From the NCBI RefSeq assembly GCF_035918095.1, contig NZ_CP109137.1:5458001-5522000 (forward strand): DNA of 64,000 nt, in the 5' to 3' direction. Below are positions 2,835-64,000 of the stretch, one piece after another (the stretch's first letter is position 1; each line of letters opens with the position of its first letter). Position numbers and translations under genes: made by a program. This DNA comes from Streptomyces sp. NBC_01750 (GTDB lineage: Bacteria; Actinomycetota; Actinomycetes; Streptomycetales; Streptomycetaceae). The notes beneath the pieces were generated by a model that was not told where the DNA came from, did not search any database, and was given only the letters and a program-made list of their open reading frames with translations.

Positions 2835-4451
2835 CTATTCCGCCGGACCCCGCAGCTCCGCCCCCATCGTCGCGCGCAGCCGCAGCGTCGAGACCAGGCG
2901 CTGGAACGCCTCCGACCAGTAACCGCCCGCGCCCGGTGACGCTCCCTCCGGCTCGTCGGGCGTGGCCGTGAGGATCTCCAGGCGGCCGGCCTCCTCCGGC
3001 GCCAGGCAGCGCTCGGCCAGGCCCATCACTCCGCTGAAGCTCCACGGGTAGCTCCCCGCGTCCCGCGCGATGTCGAGCGCATCGACCACCGAACGGCCCA
3101 GCGGCTCCGACCACGGCACCTGGCAGACCCCCAGCAGCTGGAACGCCTCCGACAGCCCGTGCGCAGCGATGAATTCCGCGACCCAGCCCGCCCGTTCACC
3201 GGCCGGCAGCGCCGCGAGCAGCTTCGCCCGCTCGGCGAGCGACGTCGTGCCGGGCCCGGTCTCCGGTGGGGTGCCCGGTGGGCCGAGGAGGGCCCGGGAC
3301 CACTCCGCGTCCCGCTGCCGCACCGCCGCCCTGCACCACGCCGCGTGCAGCTCGTCCCCCCAGTCGTCGGCGACGGGCAGCGCGACGAGCTCGTCGGCCG
3401 TGCGCCCGCCGAGCCGCACCGGCCAGGTCGCCATGGGCGCCGCCTCGACCAACTGGCCCAGCCACCAGGATCGTTCGCCCCGTCCCGACGGCGGATTCGG
3501 CACCACGCCGTCGCGCTGCATATCGGCATCGCACTCGTGCGGCGCCTCCACCACGATCGCCGCGTCGGCTCCGTCACCACTGCGGTCCAGGCTTATGCAC
3601 GAAGCCGCCCGCGCCGCCATCCGCCCGGCGAGCGCGGAATGCGGCAGTGCCGAGAGCAACTCGGCCGCCGTGGCGCGGACATTGCGGCTGCGGTCGGAGA
3701 GGGCCTTTTCCAGGAACGCCTCGTCCGCGTCGGACAGTCCCGTACGCAATGAGTCCAGGAACATCAGCCGGTCCTCGGCACGCTCCGTGGACCAGGTCGC
3801 CGCCAGCAGCGCCAGCGCCTTGTCCGCGTCGTGCGCCCGTACGGCGGCCAGCAGCGCGACCCGCTCGGCGAACAGCCCTTCCTCCCAGAGGCGTCGGACG
3901 GCCTCCGCGTCATCCGTGTCCAGCGTGGGGCCGCCGGACGCGCCGCGCAGCGCGAACTTCCACTCCGGGTTGAGCCGGGCGAGCCACAGCCCGCGCGGCC
4001 CGGCGAAGGTGAGAGCCTGCGGGCGCAGATCCGTACGCGCACGGGCCGCGTCCAGCAGTGCGGGCAGCACGGACGCCGGCGCCTGGTACTTGTGATCGTT
4101 GGCCGCGGCCAGCCACTGGGGGAGCAGTTCGGTCAGATCCGGCGCCGTACCGCGCCGCCCCCCGGCGGACGGGGCGGACCGGTCTGCCAGCAGCTGGGCG
4201 AGCCGGCGCCGGGCGGGCGGGGGCAGCCGCGGCCGCGCGTCGTGCGGCGCGGGCTCAGGTAGAGCGGCGGCGGGTGCGGGCAGCAGTCCCGCCCTGCGCC
4301 GTACGGTCTGCACGGCCGCGGCGTCCAGCAGCCCGGCTGGCGCGTGCTTGCCCGGTGTCAGGACTTCGGCCGGCGGCGTACGGCGGTCGGTGCCGAGAAG
4401 AGCCGAGGTGACGAGCTCTTCCCAGAGTGAGGTGCTGGTGGTGCCAGTCAT
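2835..4451 (-). CDS. DUF5691 family protein, part of the SWIM/MoxR/VWA gene set
   Basis: A 538-residue protein with no signal peptide or membrane segment. It begins WEELVTSALLGTDRR and is rich in Leu, Ala and Arg, consistent with helical repeats; HEAT-like pairs such as DRSRNVRATAAELLSALP (about residues 250-275) are visible. Its composition and its place directly after a SWIM-domain gene match the DUF5691 family, which is consistently found beside MoxR ATPase, VWA and SWIM genes in actinomycetes. It starts 15 bp after the SWIM gene's stop, so the two form one leftward operon driven by the divergent promoter at 5824-5846. No enzymatic motif is visible. A scaffold or adaptor role is an inference from the repeat-like sequence. 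Confidence 0.78.
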   Translation of the reverse strand: MTGTTSTSLWEELVTSALLGTDRRTPPAEVLTPGKHAPAGLLDAAAVQTVRRRAGLLPAPAAALPEPAPHDARPRLPPPARRRLAQLLADRSAPSAGGRRGTAPDLTELLPQWLAAANDHKYQAPASVLPALLDAARARTDLRPQALTFAGPRGLWLARLNPEWKFALRGASGGPTLDTDDAEAVRRLWEEGLFAERVALLAAVRAHDADKALALLAATWSTERAEDRLMFLDSLRTGLSDADEAFLEKALSDRSRNVRATAAELLSALPHSALAGRMAARAASCISLDRSGDGADAAIVVEAPHECDADMQRDGVVPNPPSGRGERSWWLGQLVEAAPMATWPVRLGGRTADELVALPVADDWGDELHAAWCRAAVRQRDAEWSRALLGPPGTPPETGPGTTSLAERAKLLAALPAGERAGWVAEFIAAHGLSEAFQLLGVCQVPWSEPLGRSVVDALDIARDAGSYPWSFSGVMGLAERCLAPEEAGRLEILTATPDEPEGASPGAGGYWSEAFQRLVSTLRLRATMGAELRGPAE

Positions 4452-4466
4452 GGGTCCTCCGTACGT

Positions 4467-5816
4467 TCAGATGAGCGGGACCGTCTCCGACCCGTCCTCG
4501 GACCAGGCGGCGAGCGGCGAGAAGCCCTGGTGGCCGCACTCGCCGAAGACGGTGACCGGCCCGCCGCCGGAGAGCGCCACGAGCTTCAGCAGCCCGGAGC
4601 GGGCGAGCGCGGCGGGCGCGATGGGCAGCGCGGTCCCGCCGTCGCCGTCCGCCAGTTGCCACCCTGGGCTCGTGGGGACGGGTATGACTCCGCTCAGAGT
4701 CACCGGCCAGGAGTCCAGCCAGGGATCGTCCCGCAGCGCCCGCCCGTACGCATCGAGGGCCGCCGCGGTACACCCTCCCGGCGGAGGTGACGCGATCGCG
4801 ACGGGGGCGCCGAACTGCTCGCCCAGGTCCGCCCGCAGCTGCCCCGCGCCCGCGTACGGAGTGAGCTCCGCGTCGATCGTCAGCCCCACCGGAAGCGCCT
4901 GCTGCGGGGACCGGCCTGCCGCGCCGAAGGAGAGCAGCAGCGCCGCGCGCCCGGATTCCCACCCGTACAGCCAGATGCGGCGGGTGGTGATTTTGCCGTC
5001 CGAGGAGTCGTACTGGGCCAGGATCAGCCAGCGGTCCCGGACCGGCGGGCCCGCGGCCGGCGAGGTGAGGCCGACCCGGGTGCGGACCGTTGCTGCCAGC
5101 GGCTCCGGCAGCCGCTCGATGCCCAGCCAGGCCGCGTCCAGCAGATGGATCAGCGCGCACTCCTCCAGCAGCCGCACCGGCCAGCCCGGCCCGGAGCCCG
5201 GGATCGTGCCCAACTCCCGCACCCGCGCGGCCAGGCCCGGTGCCTGCGCGTCGACCATGCGGGCCGCGGTCTCCTCCCACAGCCCGTACCCCGACTGCTC
5301 GGCCGCGGCCAGGCCGCCGCGCAGCAGATCCGCCAGCCGCCGCTCCAGCTCCGTCGCTCCCGCGGTGATCCGCCCCGCCCGGCGTTCGGCCCGGCGCCTG
5401 GCCGCCTCCGGGTCGGCGGACTTCGCGGACTGTCCCGTGCCCGCTTCGCTCTGTTCCTTGTCCGTGGCGCGTTTTCGGCGCCCTTCCAGCCACTCCTCGG
5501 CCCAGTCCGGGGTCGTGGAGTCCCGTACCGCCTCCTCGTCCGCCGCCCAGAGCAGCAGCAGCCCCAGCGCGTGCTTGCACGGGAACTTCCGGCTCGGGCA
5601 ACTGCACTTGTAGGCGGGGCCCGTGGTGTCGACAACCGTCTGGTACGGCTTGCTGCCGCTGCCCTTGCACAGGCCCCAGACGCCCCCCGAGCCGCTGCTC
5701 CCCGCACCGGACCACGGCCCGGCCGCGCCGAGTTTGTTTCCCGCTCTGCGTGACGCGTCGTCAGGAGCCAGAGCCAGCACCTGTTCCGACGTCCAGCGCA
5801 CCCCCTGCTGATTCAT
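4467..5816 (-). CDS. SWIM zinc-finger domain protein (YehQ-like)
   Basis: A 449-residue cytoplasmic protein with a SWIM zinc finger at residues 71-82, C-x-C-x6-C-x-H (CSCPSRKFPCKH), the signature of a metal-binding module found in DNA- and protein-interacting proteins. The rest matches no enzyme I recognise. The ATG at 5816 is preferred over an upstream ATG because a PafBC-type promoter has its TAGCGT -10 box at 5829-5824, placing transcription start at or within one base of this ATG, so the message is probably leaderless. It is first in the operon with DUF5691 and divergent from the MoxR-DUF5682-VWA operon. E. coli YehQ occupies the equivalent position in the yehL-M-P-Q cluster. Its biochemical role is unknown. 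Confidence 0.85.
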   Translation of the reverse strand: MNQQGVRWTSEQVLALAPDDASRRAGNKLGAAGPWSGAGSSGSGGVWGLCKGSGSKPYQTVVDTTGPAYKCSCPSRKFPCKHALGLLLLWAADEEAVRDSTTPDWAEEWLEGRRKRATDKEQSEAGTGQSAKSADPEAARRRAERRAGRITAGATELERRLADLLRGGLAAAEQSGYGLWEETAARMVDAQAPGLAARVRELGTIPGSGPGWPVRLLEECALIHLLDAAWLGIERLPEPLAATVRTRVGLTSPAAGPPVRDRWLILAQYDSSDGKITTRRIWLYGWESGRAALLLSFGAAGRSPQQALPVGLTIDAELTPYAGAGQLRADLGEQFGAPVAIASPPPGGCTAAALDAYGRALRDDPWLDSWPVTLSGVIPVPTSPGWQLADGDGGTALPIAPAALARSGLLKLVALSGGGPVTVFGECGHQGFSPLAAWSEDGSETVPLI

Positions 5817-5823
5817 GGGAACG

Positions 5824-5846
5824 ACGCTACGGGCCACCACTGACAA
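5824..5846 (-). promoter_or_regulatory. PafBC-type (RecA-NDp) promoter of the SWIM-DUF5691 operon
   Basis: On the minus strand TTGTCAGTG (5846-5838), 8 bp, then TAGCGT (5829-5824) exactly fits the RecA-independent DNA-damage promoter described in mycobacteria, TTGTCRGTG-N8-TAnnnT, recognised by the WYL-domain activator PafBC. The element is the left arm of a 13-bp perfect inverted repeat. The -10 box sits 7 nt before the start codon. Confidence 0.8.
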
Positions 5847-5883
5847 TCGGCTCCGACCTGCGGAAACGGTCGATTGTCAGTGG
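5837..5883. promoter_or_regulatory. 13-bp perfect inverted repeat joining two divergent damage promoters
   Basis: CCACTGACAATCG (5837-5849) and CGATTGTCAGTGG (5871-5883) are exact reverse complements separated by 21 bp. Each arm contains TTGTCAGTG pointing outward, so one symmetrical region can drive the SWIM-DUF5691 operon leftward and the MoxR-DUF5682-VWA operon rightward. Confidence 0.85.
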
Positions 5884-5896
5884 CATGGTGCACGGT
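5874..5896 (+). promoter_or_regulatory. PafBC-type promoter of the MoxR-DUF5682-VWA operon
   Basis: TTGTCAGTG (5874-5882), 8 bp, CACGGT (5891-5896). The upstream element is perfect. The -10 box keeps A2 and T6 of TAnnnT but has C in the first position, so this side may be weaker than the leftward promoter. Predicted transcription start is near 5903, 43 nt before the MoxR start codon. Confidence 0.65.
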
Positions 5897-5945
5897 GGAA
5901 CTCACATCGGGTCGAACGATCTGGAACCGATCTGGAGGGGGATCC

Positions 5946-7058
5946 ATGACCGTGTCCGAAACCGGCGCAGCCACCGGCGCCGAGGCCCTGCGGCCGCACG
6001 CCGAGGATGCTTTCGCCGACGAGCTCAAGACGCTCGCCGCGGCCGACGACCGGCCGCGGCCGGCCAGATGGCGGCTGTCGCCGTGGGCCGTAGCCACCTA
6101 TCTGCTCGGCGGCACGCTGCCCGACGGCACGGTGATCACACCCAAGTACGTGGGGCCGCGCCGGATCGTCGAGGTGGCCGTCACCACTCTGGCCACCGAC
6201 CGGGCACTGCTGCTCCTCGGCGTGCCGGGCACCGCCAAGACCTGGGTCTCCGAACATCTCGCCGCGGCCGTCAGCGGCGACTCGACCCTGCTCGTGCAGG
6301 GCACGGCGGGCACGCCGGAAGAGGCGATTCGCTACGGCTGGAACTACGCGCAGCTGCTCGCCCACGGCCCAAGCCGGGACGCGCTGGTGCCGAGCCCCGT
6401 CATGCGCGCGATGTCAGAGGGCATGACCGCTCGGGTCGAGGAGCTCACCCGTATCCCCGCGGACGTGCAGGACACTCTGATCACGATCCTTTCCGAGAAG
6501 ACGCTGCCCATCCCTGAGCTGGGGCAGGAGGTGCAGGCGGTCCGCGGGTTCAATCTCATCGCCACCGCCAATGACCGCGACCGCGGGGTCAACGACCTCT
6601 CCAGCGCGCTGCGCCGCCGGTTCAACACCGTCGTGCTGCCGCTGCCCGCCACACCGGAGGCCGAGGTCGACATCGTGTCGCGCCGCGTCGACCAGCTGGG
6701 GCGCTCGCTCGATCTGCCGGCCGCGCCGGAGGGACTGGAGGAGATCCGCCGTGTGGTCACCGTCTTCCGGGAGTTGCGGGACGGGGTCTCGGCAGACGGT
6801 CGCACCAAGCTCAAGTCGCCCTCGGGGACGCTCTCCACGGCTGAGGCGATCTCCGTGGTCACGGGCGGTCTCGCGCTCGCCGCGCACTTCGGGGACGGCG
6901 TGCTGCGCCCTGGTGATGTGGCGGCCGGCATCCTCGGCGCGGTCGTACGCGACCCGGCGGCGGACCGGGTCATCTGGCAGGAGTACCTGGAGACGGTGGT
7001 CCGAGAGCGCGACGGGTGGAAGGACTTCTACCGCGCCTGCCGCGAGGTGAGCGTATGA
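5946..7058 (+). CDS. MoxR-family AAA+ ATPase (YehL-like)
   Basis: A 370-residue AAA+ ATPase. Walker A is GVPGTAKT (residues 92-99), there is a sensor-type IATANDRD segment, and an arginine-finger region reads SSALRRRFN. The lack of membrane segments and the partnership with a VWA gene place it in the MoxR class, chaperone-like ATPases that use ATP hydrolysis to load metals or remodel partner proteins together with VWA-domain proteins. The ATG at 5946 is chosen for the GGAGGGGG ribosome-binding site 7 bp upstream; an in-frame ATG at 5874 lies inside the promoter. Its stop overlaps the next start (ATGA), indicating translational coupling. The client protein is unknown. Confidence 0.9.
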   Translation: MTVSETGAATGAEALRPHAEDAFADELKTLAAADDRPRPARWRLSPWAVATYLLGGTLPDGTVITPKYVGPRRIVEVAVTTLATDRALLLLGVPGTAKTWVSEHLAAAVSGDSTLLVQGTAGTPEEAIRYGWNYAQLLAHGPSRDALVPSPVMRAMSEGMTARVEELTRIPADVQDTLITILSEKTLPIPELGQEVQAVRGFNLIATANDRDRGVNDLSSALRRRFNTVVLPLPATPEAEVDIVSRRVDQLGRSLDLPAAPEGLEEIRRVVTVFRELRDGVSADGRTKLKSPSGTLSTAEAISVVTGGLALAAHFGDGVLRPGDVAAGILGAVVRDPAADRVIWQEYLETVVRERDGWKDFYRACREVSV

Positions 7059-9655
7059 CCGGCCCCCTGCTGCTTGGCGTCCGCCACCACGGGCCGGGCT
7101 CGGCACGGGCGGTGCGGGCCGCGCTGGAGGCGGCGTCGCCCGCGGTCGTGCTGATCGAGGGACCGCCGGAGGGCGACGCGCTGCTGGCGCTCGCCGCGGA
7201 CGAGCAGATGCGCCCGCCGGTCGCCCTTCTCGCGCACGCGGTGGACGACCCGGGGCGGGCGGCGTTCTGGCCGCTGGCCGAGTTCTCCCCGGAGTGGGTG
7301 GCGCTCCGCTGGGCGCTCGGACGCGGGGTTCCGGTCCGGTTCATCGACCTCCCCGCGGCGCATTCGCTGGCGCCGGCGGCGGAGGAGGAGTCGGCGAGCC
7401 CGGAAACCGCCGACGGCGAGCCAGGTCCACCTGCCGGGGCCGAGCCGCCCGAGGGTGGCGGTGCCGGGGCTGGTGCACCCGGAGCGGGGGCGGACAGCGT
7501 CGACCCCGGAGGCCCGGGGCCGGTCGGACCGAGCGGGGTCGCACCGCTTTCGGGCCAGCCGCCCGAGGGCGGCGGTGCGGGGGCCGCCGGGGGTCCGGAG
7601 GCAACACCGGGAGCGGCCGGGCCCGCAGGAACCCTGGCGCCCGACGGGGGGACGCCCGGTGCGCAGGGTGGCGACGGCGCGGGGCCGCACACGGTCGGGC
7701 CCGAGCACGAGCGCGGTGCGCCCGACCCCAGTGGGCTGCGGATCGATCCCATCGCCGTGCTTGCCGAGACGGCCGGATACGACGATCCCGAGCGGTGGTG
7801 GGAAGACGTCATCGAGCATCGCGGTACGGCAGCCCACGCGGCGGACGCCCGCGCGCCCTTCGCCGCACTCGGGGACGCCATGGCCGCGCTGCGCGAGACG
7901 TACGGGCACGGCGGACACGACCGTGATCTCGCCCGCGAGGCACATATGCGGATCCAACTCCGGGCCGCGCGGAAGGAGTTCGGAGACGAGGTCGCCGTCG
8001 TCTGCGGCGCCTGGCATGTGCCCGCGCTCGAGGAGAAGACCACCCTCGCGGCCGACAAGGCCCTTCTCAAGGGGCTGCCCAAGGTCAAGACCGAGATGAC
8101 CTGGGTGCCCTGGACCTACCGCAGGCTCGCCCGGCACAGCGGATACGGCGCCGGCATCGACTCGCCCGGTTGGTACGGGCATCTCTTCGGCGTGGCCGAC
8201 CGGCCCATCGAGCGCTGGATGACCAAGGTCGCCGGGCTGCTGCGTGACGAGGACAGGCTGGTCTCCTCCGCCCATGTCATCGAGGCCGTACGGCTCGCCG
8301 AGACTCTCGCCGCCATGCGAGGCCGGCCCCTCGCCGGGCTTACCGAGACGACCGACGCGATACGGGCCGTGATGTGCGAGGGCTCCGACGTGCCGCTCGA
8401 CCTCATCCGGGACCGGCTCGTCGTCGGGGATGTGCTCGGCGAGGTGCCGGACGCCGCGCCCGCCGTGCCGCTGCAGCGTGACCTGACCCGGCTTCAGCGA
8501 AGCCTGCGGATCAAACCGGAGGCGCTCGAGCGGGAGCTGGAGCTGGACCTGCGCAAGGAGACAGACGCGGCGAAGAGCCGGCTGCTGCACCGGCTTCGGC
8601 TGCTCTCCATCGGCTGGGGCGAGCCCGTCACAGGGCGGGGGAGCACCGGCACATTCCGGGAGAGCTGGCGGCTGCGCTGGGAGCCGGAGCTCTTCGTCAA
8701 GGTGGCGGAGGCCGGAGTGTGGGGCACGACCGTGCTCTCCGCCGCCACGGCCAAGGCCGAGTCGAGGGCGGTGTCCGCCACCGCCCTCGCCGAGGTCACC
8801 GCGCTCGCCGAACAGTGCCTGCTGGCCGAACTGCCCGACGCGCTGCCCGTGGTGATGCGGGCGCTGGCCGACCGCGCCGCACTCGACGCGGACGTCGGTC
8901 ATCTCGCCCAGGCACTGCCGGCCCTTGCCCGCTCGCTGCGGTACGGGGACGTGCGGTCGACCGACACGGTCGCGCTCGGTGAGGTCGCGGCCGGTATTGC
9001 CGAGCGGATCTGCGTCGGCCTGCCCCCCGCTTGCACCGGACTCGACGCGGACGGCGCGGCCGGGATGCGGGGCCATCTGGACGGCGTGCACACCGCGATC
9101 GGGCTGCTGCCGAAGGGCCGTGAGCTGATCGAACGCTGGGGATCGGTCCTGCATCGGCTCGCGGCCCGCGACACCGTGCCCGGAGTCATACGCGGCAGGG
9201 CGGCACGGCTGCTGCTGGACGACGGACGGCTCGAGGAGGACGAGGCCGCACGGCTCATGGGCCTCGCGCTGTCGGTCGGCACACCGCCCGCCGACGCGGC
9301 CGCCTGGATCGAGGGTTTCGTCGGCGGTGCTTCCGGCGGCGGAATGCTCCTGGTCCACGACGAGCGCCTGCTCGCACTCGTGGACGCCTGGCTGAGCGGC
9401 GTGCCCGCGGACGCGTTCACCGACGTGCTGCCGCTGCTGCGCCGCACCTTCTCCGCCTACGAACCGGGCGTGCGCCGCACCCTGGGCGAGCTGGTCCGGC
9501 GCGGACCCGCGGCGGCGTCCGGTCCCGCACACGCCGAGTCCACGATGCCCGGTTTCGGCGCCGGCCTCGACGGGCAGCGGGCGGACGCGGTGCTGCCGGT
9601 GCTGCACCTGCTCCTCGGAATCGACGACAACGACCTCGCGGGGGTGGCCCGATGA
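7055..9655 (+). CDS. DUF5682 family protein (YehM-like) with a long Gly/Pro/Ala-rich insert
   Basis: An 866-residue soluble protein. The N-terminus has GVRHHGPGSARA (residues 8-19) and LIEGPPEGD (33-41), and further on AVVCGAWHVPAL. These three blocks recall the TraB/EreA-ChaN-like superfamily of putative hydrolases; that link is an inference from motif style. Between roughly residues 110 and 225 lies a Gly/Pro/Ala-rich low-complexity insert, probably a flexible linker inside or beside the catalytic domain. The second half is helical and leucine-rich. It is coupled by four-base ATGA overlaps to the MoxR gene upstream and the VWA gene downstream, so the three are made in fixed proportion. E. 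coli YehM is the equivalent. Confidence 0.83.
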   Translation: MTGPLLLGVRHHGPGSARAVRAALEAASPAVVLIEGPPEGDALLALAADEQMRPPVALLAHAVDDPGRAAFWPLAEFSPEWVALRWALGRGVPVRFIDLPAAHSLAPAAEEESASPETADGEPGPPAGAEPPEGGGAGAGAPGAGADSVDPGGPGPVGPSGVAPLSGQPPEGGGAGAAGGPEATPGAAGPAGTLAPDGGTPGAQGGDGAGPHTVGPEHERGAPDPSGLRIDPIAVLAETAGYDDPERWWEDVIEHRGTAAHAADARAPFAALGDAMAALRETYGHGGHDRDLAREAHMRIQLRAARKEFGDEVAVVCGAWHVPALEEKTTLAADKALLKGLPKVKTEMTWVPWTYRRLARHSGYGAGIDSPGWYGHLFGVADRPIERWMTKVAGLLRDEDRLVSSAHVIEAVRLAETLAAMRGRPLAGLTETTDAIRAVMCEGSDVPLDLIRDRLVVGDVLGEVPDAAPAVPLQRDLTRLQRSLRIKPEALERELELDLRKETDAAKSRLLHRLRLLSIGWGEPVTGRGSTGTFRESWRLRWEPELFVKVAEAGVWGTTVLSAATAKAESRAVSATALAEVTALAEQCLLAELPDALPVVMRALADRAALDADVGHLAQALPALARSLRYGDVRSTDTVALGEVAAGIAERICVGLPPACTGLDADGAAGMRGHLDGVHTAIGLLPKGRELIERWGSVLHRLAARDTVPGVIRGRAARLLLDDGRLEEDEAARLMGLALSVGTPPADAAAWIEGFVGGASGGGMLLVHDERLLALVDAWLSGVPADAFTDVLPLLRRTFSAYEPGVRRTLGELVRRGPAAASGPAHAESTMPGFGAGLDGQRADAVLPVLHLLLGIDDNDLAGVAR

Positions 9656-10869
9656 GCACGGCGACAGAGAACGAGACCGCCGGCGAGAGCGCTGCCGCGA
9701 GCGCGAGTGGAACCGGGGGCGAGCGGCTGCGGCGGTGGCGGCTCGTGCTGGGCGGCGACGCCGCCGACGGAACCGGCTGCGCGCTCAGCGGCACCGACGC
9801 GGCGATGGACGGCGCCCTGAACGCCCTCTACGGCACCGGCAAGGACAAGGCCGGCAACCGCACCGGCAACCGCTCGGCCGGGCTCGGGGCGTCCGCACCG
9901 TCCGTCGCGCGCTGGCTCGGCGACATCCGCACCTACTTCCCGAGCTCCGTCGTCCAGGTCATGCAGCGTGACGCGATCGACCGGCTCGGGCTGTCCACGC
10001 TGCTGCTTGAGCCGGAGATGCTGGAGGCCGTGGAGGCGGACGTCCATCTCGTCGGCACCCTGCTCTCCCTCAACAAGGCGATGCCCGAGACGACCAAGGA
10101 GACGGCCAGGGCCGTCGTACGCAAGGTCGTCGACGATCTCGAGAAGCGGCTCGCGACGCGCACCAGGTCCACCCTCACCGGCGCACTCGACCGGTCCGCG
10201 AGGATCAGCCGCCCGCGCCACCGGGACATCGACTGGGACCGGACCATCCGGGCCAATCTCAAGAACTACCTTCCGGAGTTCAACACCGTCGTCCCCGAGC
10301 GGCTCATCGGATACGGACGCGCGTCCCAGTCGGTCAAGAAGGACGTGGTGCTCTGCATCGACCAGTCGGGCTCCATGGCGGCGTCCGTCGTCTATGCCTC
10401 CGTCTTCGGCGCGGTCCTCGCATCCATGCGCTCCATCGCCACGCGTCTCGTCGTCTTCGACACCGCCGTCGTCGACCTCACCGACCAGCTCGACGACCCG
10501 GTGGACGTCCTCTTCGGCACTCAACTCGGCGGCGGCACCGACATCAACAGAGCGCTCGCGTACTGTCAGTCGCAGATCACCCGCCCCGCCGACACCGTTG
10601 TCGTGCTCATCAGCGACCTCTACGAGGGCGGTATACGGGACGAGATGCTGAAGCGGGTCGCGGCGATGAAGGCGTCCGGTGTGCAATTCGTCGCACTGCT
10701 GGCGCTCTCGGACGAGGGGACGCCGGCGTACGACCACGAGCACGCGGCGGCGCTGGCGGCCCTGGGCGCACCGGCGTTCGCCTGTACGCCGGATCTTTTC
10801 CCGGATGTGATGGCCGCCGCGATCGAGAAGAGACCATTGCCCATATCGGACATGGTGACTCATCAGTAA
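9652..10869 (+). CDS. VWA-domain protein (CoxE/YehP-like), partner of the MoxR ATPase
   Basis: A 405-residue protein whose C-terminal half is a von Willebrand factor A domain. The MIDAS metal site starts with DQSGS (residues 237-241), preceded by the hydrophobic strand DVVLCI, and is completed by GGGTD and the later ISDLYEGG. The N-terminal half is a helical domain typical of the CoxE class. MoxR ATPases and VWA proteins act as pairs, the VWA protein binding the client through its Mg2+ site while the ATPase remodels it. Translationally coupled to DUF5682 (ATGA overlap) and last in the operon. No signal peptide, so it acts in the cytoplasm. Confidence 0.88.
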   Translation: MSTATENETAGESAAASASGTGGERLRRWRLVLGGDAADGTGCALSGTDAAMDGALNALYGTGKDKAGNRTGNRSAGLGASAPSVARWLGDIRTYFPSSVVQVMQRDAIDRLGLSTLLLEPEMLEAVEADVHLVGTLLSLNKAMPETTKETARAVVRKVVDDLEKRLATRTRSTLTGALDRSARISRPRHRDIDWDRTIRANLKNYLPEFNTVVPERLIGYGRASQSVKKDVVLCIDQSGSMAASVVYASVFGAVLASMRSIATRLVVFDTAVVDLTDQLDDPVDVLFGTQLGGGTDINRALAYCQSQITRPADTVVVLISDLYEGGIRDEMLKRVAAMKASGVQFVALLALSDEGTPAYDHEHAAALAALGAPAFACTPDLFPDVMAAAIEKRPLPISDMVTHQ

Positions 10870-62117: not shown

Positions 62118-62152
62118 CGTGCCGGTCCCCTCCCCGAGCTCAACTCCTGTCG

Positions 62153-62175
62153 ACGGTACGGCGCACCACTGACAA
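62153..62175 (-). promoter_or_regulatory. PafBC-type (RecA-NDp) promoter of the DUF4132 gene
   Basis: On the minus strand TTGTCAGTG (62175-62167), 8 bp, TACCGT (62158-62153): a perfect match to TTGTCRGTG-N8-TAnnnT. Transcription would start near 62146, about 29 nt before the ATG. Confidence 0.85.
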
Positions 62176-62349
62176 CGGCCCCGGCGGCCCCCAACCGGCG
62201 TACTCGCGTAACCGCCGCTGTGCCGAGGCACGCCGCGCCCACCACGACCGCACGGAGCACCGTGACTGGACCGACGGGCATGTGGAGCGATGGAAGCCCG
62301 TCCTGCCCGGCGTCCATCCCGATCTCGATCCGACGTCGATCCCGATCCC

Positions 62350-63895: not shown

Positions 63896-63918
63896 TTGTC
63901 AGTGGCGGCTTCTACTGT
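63896..63918 (+). promoter_or_regulatory. PafBC-type promoter of the right-edge gene
   Basis: TTGTCAGTG (63896-63904), 8 bp, TACTGT (63913-63918): a perfect match. The -10 box ends 7 nt before the ATG at 63926, so transcription starts at or next to the A of the start codon. The promoter begins one base past the Lrp stop. Confidence 0.82.
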
Positions 63919-63925
63919 TCTCGGC

Positions 63926-64000
63926 ATGGGAATGGTGACCTTCGTCGACGAGACGACATCGGGGGAACGCCGCGACGCTCTGGGACTGGAAGTCGCGGAG
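63926..64000 (+). CDS. Start of a leaderless, damage-promoter-driven gene of unknown function
   Basis: Only 25 codons are visible (MGMVTFVDETTSGERRDALG...). There is no ribosome-binding site. The start codon coincides with the transcription start predicted from the PafBC-type promoter, so the message is probably leaderless, like that of the SWIM gene. The segment is acidic and shows no signal peptide. The next-but-one gene upstream on the other strand is DUF4132, controlled by the same element, so it may belong to the same system. Identity cannot be decided from this fragment. Confidence 0.6.
   Translation, partial: MGMVTFVDETTSGERRDALGLEVAE

Follow-up and report, generated by a model that had tools for sequence, protein, structure and literature searches.

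The 64,000 nucleotides (nt) analysed here, called the window below (positions 5458001-5522000 of the 8.98 Mb genome of Streptomyces sp. NBC_01750), carry towards their left end two divergent operons, one for a SWIM zinc-finger protein and a DUF5691 protein, the other for a MoxR-family ATPase, a DUF5682 protein and a VWA protein, and towards their right end a DUF4132 gene (copy A) and, at the very edge, the start of a gene for a small protein with a predicted ubiquitin fold (Table 1; families were assigned by Pfam scan). Perfect copies of a damage-type promoter element, TTGTCAGTG-N8-YAnnnT (written TTGTCRGTG-N8-YAnnnT), stand before all of them. The first-pass annotation had claimed such an element for the two divergent operons and the distant DUF4132 gene, and there is indeed a perfect site at each of these starts; the fourth site heads the ubiquitin-fold gene (99 amino acids (aa), L031 2427-2723), behind which lies another DUF4132 gene (copy B, from 2726). 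We think that this ubiquitin-like protein behind a damage-type promoter at the window edge is a more interesting member than the set of six genes singled out originally.

The window contains four perfect matches to the element and five with at most one mismatch, against 0.21 expected (five were reached in 0 of 100 shuffles), and the whole genome contains 43 perfect sites against a single one for the reversed pattern, which served as control. The scan of Streptomyces genomes that the first-pass annotation had suggested gives the same picture, with 19-70 sites per genome against 0-2 for the reversed pattern in the 13 Streptomyces genomes of a 148-genome sample of the class. At 21 of the 43 sites (L014 included) 6-9 nt separate the end of the element from the first start codon that can be used, which is the layout of a leaderless mRNA. 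When four sites without a coherent gene and the three of the six-gene set are set aside, a Pfam scan of the proteins behind the other 36 finds DNA repair or replication families at 14 of them: RecA, UvrB, two NAD-dependent ligases, uracil-DNA glycosylase, a DinB-type polymerase, two methylguanine-methyltransferase-like proteins (ogt), an AlkZ-like glycosylase, a RecD2-HHH protein, DnaX, gyrase/topoisomerase IV subunit A, a helicase that we name DinG-type, and an Lhr-type helicase. The LexA-type box, GAAC-N4-GTTC, has no exact match in the window and none with up to one mismatch in 5817-5945, 62118-62200 or 63896-63925; its one-mismatch matches across the window number 16, against 17 expected.

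Table 1. Genes and promoter elements of the window discussed in the text (+, forward strand; -, reverse strand).
Feature	Position	Strand	Details
DUF5691 protein, 538 aa, second gene of leftward operon	2835-4451	-	Pfam PF18944, 583.8 bits
SWIM zinc-finger protein, 449 aa, first gene of leftward operon	4467-5816	-	Pfam PF04434, 26 bits; CxCx6CxH at residues 71-82
Damage-type promoter element TTGTCAGTG-N8-TAnnnT	5824-5846	-	Perfect; 7 nt from SWIM start codon, leaderless layout
Damage-type promoter element, CAnnnT form	5874-5896	+	Perfect; 49 nt from MoxR start codon
MoxR-family AAA+ ATPase, YehL-like, 370 aa	5946-7058	+	Pfam AAA_5, 127.9 bits; Walker A GVPGTAKT; 39% to E. coli YehL
DUF5682 protein, YehM-like, 866 aa	7055-9655	+	Pfam PF18934, 981 bits
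VWA (CoxE-type) protein, YehP-like, 405 aa	9652-10869	+	Pfam PF05762, 206 bits; metal-site motifs DQSGS, GGGT, SDL; 38% to YehP
DUF4132+DUF7737 protein, copy A, 830 aa	59625-62117	-	Pfam PF13569 and PF24879; AlphaFold2 predicted local distance difference test 84.4
Damage-type promoter element	62153-62175	-	Perfect; 35 nt from DUF4132 copy A start
Damage-type promoter element	63896-63918	+	Perfect; 7 nt from ATG of ubiquitin-like gene; absent from first-pass annotation
Ubiquitin-fold protein (start), 99 aa, C-terminal LVPLVGG; gene leaves window at right edge	63926-64000	+	Sequence from neighbouring locus (L031 2427-2723); fold predicted on 130-aa relative

The element itself is already known. 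The promoter consensus of mycobacterial PafBC is of the type TTGTCRGTG-N8-TAnnnT, and homologues of PafB and PafC are encoded by adjacent genes in this genome (L047; matches to the PafBC chain in PDB with E 4e-52 for PafC and 9e-55 for PafB), a PafC-like match being found in 145 of the 148 genomes of the class, some of which may be WYL paralogues. PafBC, which single-stranded DNA activates, works by a sigma adaptation mechanism (PMC11804915). Streptomyces rimosus has a UV-inducible recA promoter of the form TTGTCAGTGGC-N6-TAGggT, to which the SIGffRid study tied such motifs while listing 67 S. coelicolor genes (PMC2375139). The available part of that account names no MoxR, SWIM, DUF5682, DUF5691, DUF4132 or ubiquitin-like target, and its supplementary S. 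coelicolor list may hold some. Taken together, the genomic excess of sites, their ties to repair genes, the presence of pafB-pafC and the conservation at the operons strongly support, at the level of sequence, the proposal that these operons belong to a damage regulon, and we infer that PafBC controls them in this species.

Other genes behind element sites in this genome encode a MoaE protein (L036 2371-2829), a macro-domain protein (L043), a HEPN_SAV_6107 protein (L012) and an extracytoplasmic function (ECF)-type sigma factor with a SnoaL domain (L032). A perfect site also precedes a Wadjet type II pair, JetA2 DUF2397 and JetB2 DUF2398 (PADLOC matches; L001 / L294 5937-7601 and 4594-5940, reverse strand), so that this anti-plasmid SMC system may be damage-induced.

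Within Streptomyces the element is not missing at the orthologues; its absence there was an outcome that the first-pass annotation had named as speaking against its proposal. Both sites of the divergent pair are kept in all 12 further Streptomyces loci, with 23 of the 24 sites perfect (the MoxR-facing site of L128 has one mismatch), and of 18 named genomes that have a YehL-type MoxR locus, 15 show a perfect MoxR-facing site and one more (L278) a site with one mismatch. The loci fetched from outside Streptomyces have instead a one-direction operon, SWIM-DUF5691-MoxR-DUF5682-VWA (the DUF5691 match being weak or missing in several). Among 17 such operons of the same class, a site with at most one mismatch lies near the SWIM start in 6, against 0.7% of stretches drawn at random from these loci (binomial 1.4e-9), and one with at most two mismatches in 11, against 3.4%, counts to be read with the proviso that the 17 operons are not independent and that the 6 site-bearing ones come from only three genera (g179, g170, g157). 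We consider the layout more telling than such mismatch counts: the best upstream site (0-3 mismatches) stands 7 nt (once 8 nt) before an in-frame SWIM start in 13/17 operons, as it does in Streptomyces, the operons without this spacing being L102, L134, L141 and L147. Several Streptomyces also have a second, divergent MoxR-DUF5682-VWA cluster (L099-L101, L151-L154), whose MoxR is about 46% identical and whose DUF5682 frames are 1183-1313 aa long; there is no element directly before this MoxR, and L153 has a perfect one at a distance of about 6 kb.

That the five genes of the two operons form a unit is supported by synteny and by gene fusion. Their order recurs on a Deinococcus taeanensis plasmid (with a small extra gene) and on a Rhizobium etli plasmid, and on a Hymenobacter radiodurans plasmid it is the same, with VWA not annotated and DUF5682 split; moreover, among 37 loci with a SWIM homologue there are 7 (L102, L141-L146) in which it is in frame with DUF5691 as a single reading frame. 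In some operons (L134, L139-L142, L150) the finger of the SWIM homologue may have been lost or misread. By its sequence the window also holds a putative MoxR-VWA chaperone pair of YehL type, in which a MoxR with Walker A adjoins a VWA protein with the residues of the metal ion-dependent adhesion site. Apart from DUF5691, SWIM, AAA, DUF5682, VWA, DUF4132 and DUF7737, the Pfam scan of the window proteins gives only a bpMoxR match, below the cut-off.

We now turn to the gene at the window edge. Its product is predicted to have a beta-grasp fold, closest to a chain of molybdopterin synthase; Pfam gives no match, and alignment by hhalign to one ThiS yields 0.4%. The C-terminal tail L[VI][PA]L[VA]GG is present in 80/80 fetched relatives, and a Gly-Gly end in 119 of 120 relatives among the matches listed (1402 were found). 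The element precedes the gene without mismatch in 58 of the 80 loci and with one mismatch in 13 (range 0-3 mismatches), and it lies 6-8 nt from the ATG in 79/80 (in the other, L194, the contig begins too close). DUF4132 follows in 68/80, and in the loci examined it is this copy, and not copy A, that is the more widely kept DUF4132. In our genome copy B (L031 2726-4288 onward, past the right edge of the window) is broken by an in-frame TAG, whereas the gene is uninterrupted in relatives such as L159, L160 and L172. Relatives of copy A (54-60% identical) adjoin the ubiquitin-like gene on the opposite strand in L197, L200, L201, L206, L214 and L225, as in the window, which suggests that both genes tend to stay together. 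On a Bacteroides finegoldii plasmid (L304 1581-2000) a related small gene with an SGRLW end also stands before DUF4132.

The first-pass annotation had gone further and joined copy A to the five genes in a single dispersed machine of six. The five-gene part of this claim survives, with a conserved operon elsewhere and SWIM-DUF5691 fusions, while the idea that the shared promoter marks the six as one machine is not supported, about 40 other sites carrying it; nor is copy A supported as a fixed member, its query finding matches in 14/148 genomes of the class (37/148 for DUF5682). There are nevertheless ties of DUF4132 to the MoxR set that do not depend on promoters. In Agrobacterium vitis the order is MoxR-DUF5682-DUF4132-VWA-SWIM, in actinobacteria DUF4132 adjoins MoxR in loci L104, L165, L167, L168, L179 and L180, and E. 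coli has the cluster yehI-K-L-M-P-Q; in addition, a YehL-type MoxR gene is present in 18 of the 19 searched named genomes that carry the ubiquitin-like/DUF4132 pair.

A parallel case is found in Deinococcus. On replicon NZ_OV024759 of D. radiodurans, a gene for a 134-aa protein ending in LRLTALAGG, a relative by profile comparison (hhalign 97.1%, E 6e-11), lies directly before a DUF4132 gene, and the Gly-Gly tail is present in 4/4 Deinococcus loci. The sites before the pair were scored against the palindrome pattern of the radiation/desiccation response motif (RDRM): DdrO-like (RDRM-like) sites precede it in 4/4 Deinococcus plasmid loci, three with one mismatch and that of L301 with three. We take the D. 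radiodurans pair to be DRA0165-DRA0166 because the site upstream of it (L295) is the one printed for DRA0165 in PMC8533742. There DRA0165 is a listed DdrO target in a putative operon with DRA0166, the DRA0166 protein rises with mitomycin C in the wild type and does not without irrE, and both are called proteins of unknown function, with no mention of a ubiquitin fold in the part available (PMC8533742). As for the five-gene operon of D. taeanensis (L296), a DdrO-like palindrome with three mismatches (6059-6075) starts 36 nt before the SWIM gene, and the surrounding 19,080 bp hold no other such site even when three mismatches are permitted; a single weak site at one locus is only suggestive of a link to DdrO. 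It thus seems, to judge from such sites, that in Deinococcus DdrO-type sites occur at both of the modules that have PafBC-type elements in Streptomyces, with thinner evidence for the five-gene module.

The reading towards which we lean, if only slightly, is that these genes are two modules of one DNA-damage response, a MoxR-VWA remodelling machine and its ubiquitin-like/DUF4132 companion. The first module would be a chaperone machine made of SWIM, DUF5691, MoxR, DUF5682 and VWA proteins, the second the diglycine-tailed ubiquitin-like protein with DUF4132, and both would be transcribed in Streptomyces from PafBC-type promoters. Single-stranded DNA would activate PafBC, as published for mycobacteria, and with PafBC the housekeeping RNA polymerase would begin transcripts with a short leader or none at TTGTCAGTG-N8-YAnnnT. 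The MoxR ring may then power the VWA co-chaperone (pairs of this family are believed to spend ATP on the remodelling of partner proteins; PMC7159879), which would grip a target protein via its metal site; SWIM-DUF5691 would supply binding to nucleic acid (DNA) or to the target, and DUF5682 would be the third core component, possibly with a Tiki/ChaN-like N-terminal domain (its relatives give weak matches to ChaN in 2/29 and to TraB/PrgY/gumN in 1/29, E 0.055-0.066). DUF4132 would be a HEAT-like scaffold, its predicted model having HEAT-like residues 1-360 and a conserved alpha/beta part without family assignment. The ubiquitin-like/DUF4132 pair may mark, hold or scaffold targets, probably protein complexes stalled on damaged DNA, and the MoxR-VWA pair would remodel or remove these stalled or trapped complexes. 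Since no further gene is widely conserved near the pair, the ubiquitin-like tail would be activated by an unlinked enzyme or used non-covalently. What the sequence itself shows is the promoter sites and their conservation, the operons and the fusion, the ATPase and metal motifs, a predicted ubiquitin fold and the Gly-Gly tail; both the target of the machine and the cooperation between the modules are things that we infer.

Several observations weigh against this reading and should be acknowledged. A study of LexA in S. venezuelae stated that an initial search suggested the mycobacterial PafBC motif not to be conserved there (PMC9380542); for the genus, the 19-70 copies in 13/13 Streptomyces genomes point the opposite way, S. 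venezuelae not being among the 13. Hamadaea and Catellatospora have the MoxR gene without the site, and seven operons from other classes have no site with at most one mismatch (0/7; 2/7 within two). No CxCxnCxH finger is found in the frame of the SWIM homologue in 6/17 operons (those listed above), so that the zinc finger would not be essential everywhere. A strong DUF4132 match occurs in 4/13 Streptomyces genomes (our own included) and any match in 6/13, in a search that scored only 6 candidates per genome, whereas DUF5682 is in 13/13. The Bacteroides relative does not end in Gly-Gly. Finally, within 8 kb, as far as the contigs reach, no gene besides the pair itself recurs in more than 4 of 15 loci, and no linked conjugation enzyme emerged among these neighbours, which were not scanned for families.

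Some of these points lead to a different hypothesis, in which the operons are ordinary members of a PafBC-type regulon that act independently, the MoxR operon being one machine and the DUF4132 genes another, unrelated one. This we take seriously, without thinking it probable. With about 40 other element sites in the genome, the motif alone neither defines nor proves a joint machine; about 40-85 kb separate the two modules in the four Streptomyces genomes that allow the distance to be measured; and Micromonospora zingiberis has the ubiquitin-like/DUF4132 pair with no match to a YehL-type MoxR. On the other hand, the MoxR-DUF5682-VWA clusters of E. coli, Agrobacterium and several actinobacteria include DUF4132 or adjoin it, damage-type sites for two unrelated regulators are found at each of the modules, and 18 of 19 searched genomes with the pair do have the YehL-type MoxR. 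That the matches at these genes arose by chance is, in our opinion, barely conceivable: one can invoke only the general caution that short motifs so arise, which is contradicted by the counts in window and genome and by conservation across relatives.

Two further hypotheses concern function. The ubiquitin-like protein could be a MoaD-like sulfur carrier, thiocarboxylated by the housekeeping MoeB/ThiF, with DUF4132 (MolR family) serving cofactor or nucleotide thiolation after damage. We find this unlikely, as comparison with a single ThiS gave no sign of a sequence relation, the pair has no other widely conserved neighbour, and moeA and moeB are not differentially expressed on DdrO depletion (PMC8533742). 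It is a little less likely still that we are dealing with a MoxR-VWA ternary conflict system directed against phages or plasmids, with DNA damage as its alarm. Such ternary systems have been proposed to be conflict systems (PMC7159879), and the Wadjet type II operon carries the motif in the same genome; but the PADLOC defence models match none of the six window proteins, nor the ubiquitin-like protein and the DUF4132 proteins tried, the genes keep a stable order, the Pfam scan of the window proteins gives no effector domain, and DUF5682 is in all 13 sampled Streptomyces.

Returning to the two-module response, one can formulate it more boldly as a damage-induced ubiquitin-like system, in which the diglycine protein and DUF4132 mark or engage proteins trapped on damaged DNA and a MoxR-VWA-SWIM segregase extracts or remodels them, under two unrelated damage regulators, PafBC in actinobacteria and DdrO in Deinococcus. 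In this full form the idea is tentative and rather doubtful; if true, the system would play the part that ubiquitin and Cdc48/p97 play at DNA lesions in eukaryotes. Bacterial DNA repair would gain a new type of player in a ubiquitin-like protein that is damage-controlled, has a diglycine tail and stands beside an unexplained scaffold, and this is directly testable in S. coelicolor and D. radiodurans. As to the yeh-type MoxR cluster, which spans Enterobacteria to Actinobacteria and Deinococcus, no functional study turned up in the open-access literature (subscription papers lay mostly outside the search), and it now gains a testable role from its damage promoters in one phylum and from the DdrO-type site that matches them in another.

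How does all this compare with known systems? In RavA-ViaA and other MoxR-VWA chaperone pairs, an ATPase and a VWA protein go together with intact nucleotide and metal motifs, as they do here; unlike RavA-ViaA, the window set adds SWIM, DUF5691 and DUF5682 partners and a damage-type promoter. The MoxR-VWA ternary systems (VMAP, iSTAND, FtsH-Ubl; PMC7159879) likewise combine MoxR, a VWA co-chaperone and a third component, and their FtsH type includes a ubiquitin-like (Ubl) protein, whereas the window proteins have no Pfam VMAP, iSTAND, FtsH, E1, E2, RING, JAB or variable effector domains; SWIM, WGR and YehL are absent from the main text of that paper.

The likeness to the E. coli yeh cluster, whose members the first-pass annotation held to be of the same protein types, is real for YehL (MoxR, 39% identity), YehP (VWA, 38%), YehM (DUF5682, 42% and 24% in two pieces) and YehI (DUF4132, 23% over 269 aa). 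E. coli has a SWIM protein as well, yet the equivalence proposed for YehQ is not borne out by blastp, which gives no significant match to the window SWIM protein (E 9.3). DUF5691 has none among YehF, I, L, M, P and Q (best E 0.58; YehK and the yehH pseudogene were outside the comparison), and the 24 kb E. coli region has no exact CTGT-N8-ACAG LexA core.

The promoters resemble those of the mycobacterial PafBC regulon and of S. rimosus recA, with the same element, overlapping targets and both PafB and PafC encoded in the genome. The D. radiodurans DRA0165-DRA0166 pair, under DdrO/IrrE, differs in that its regulator is unrelated and its DUF4132 protein is 1626 aa long, but it is the same pair of a ubiquitin-like protein and DUF4132, with the same Gly-Gly tail, and it is controlled by DNA damage.

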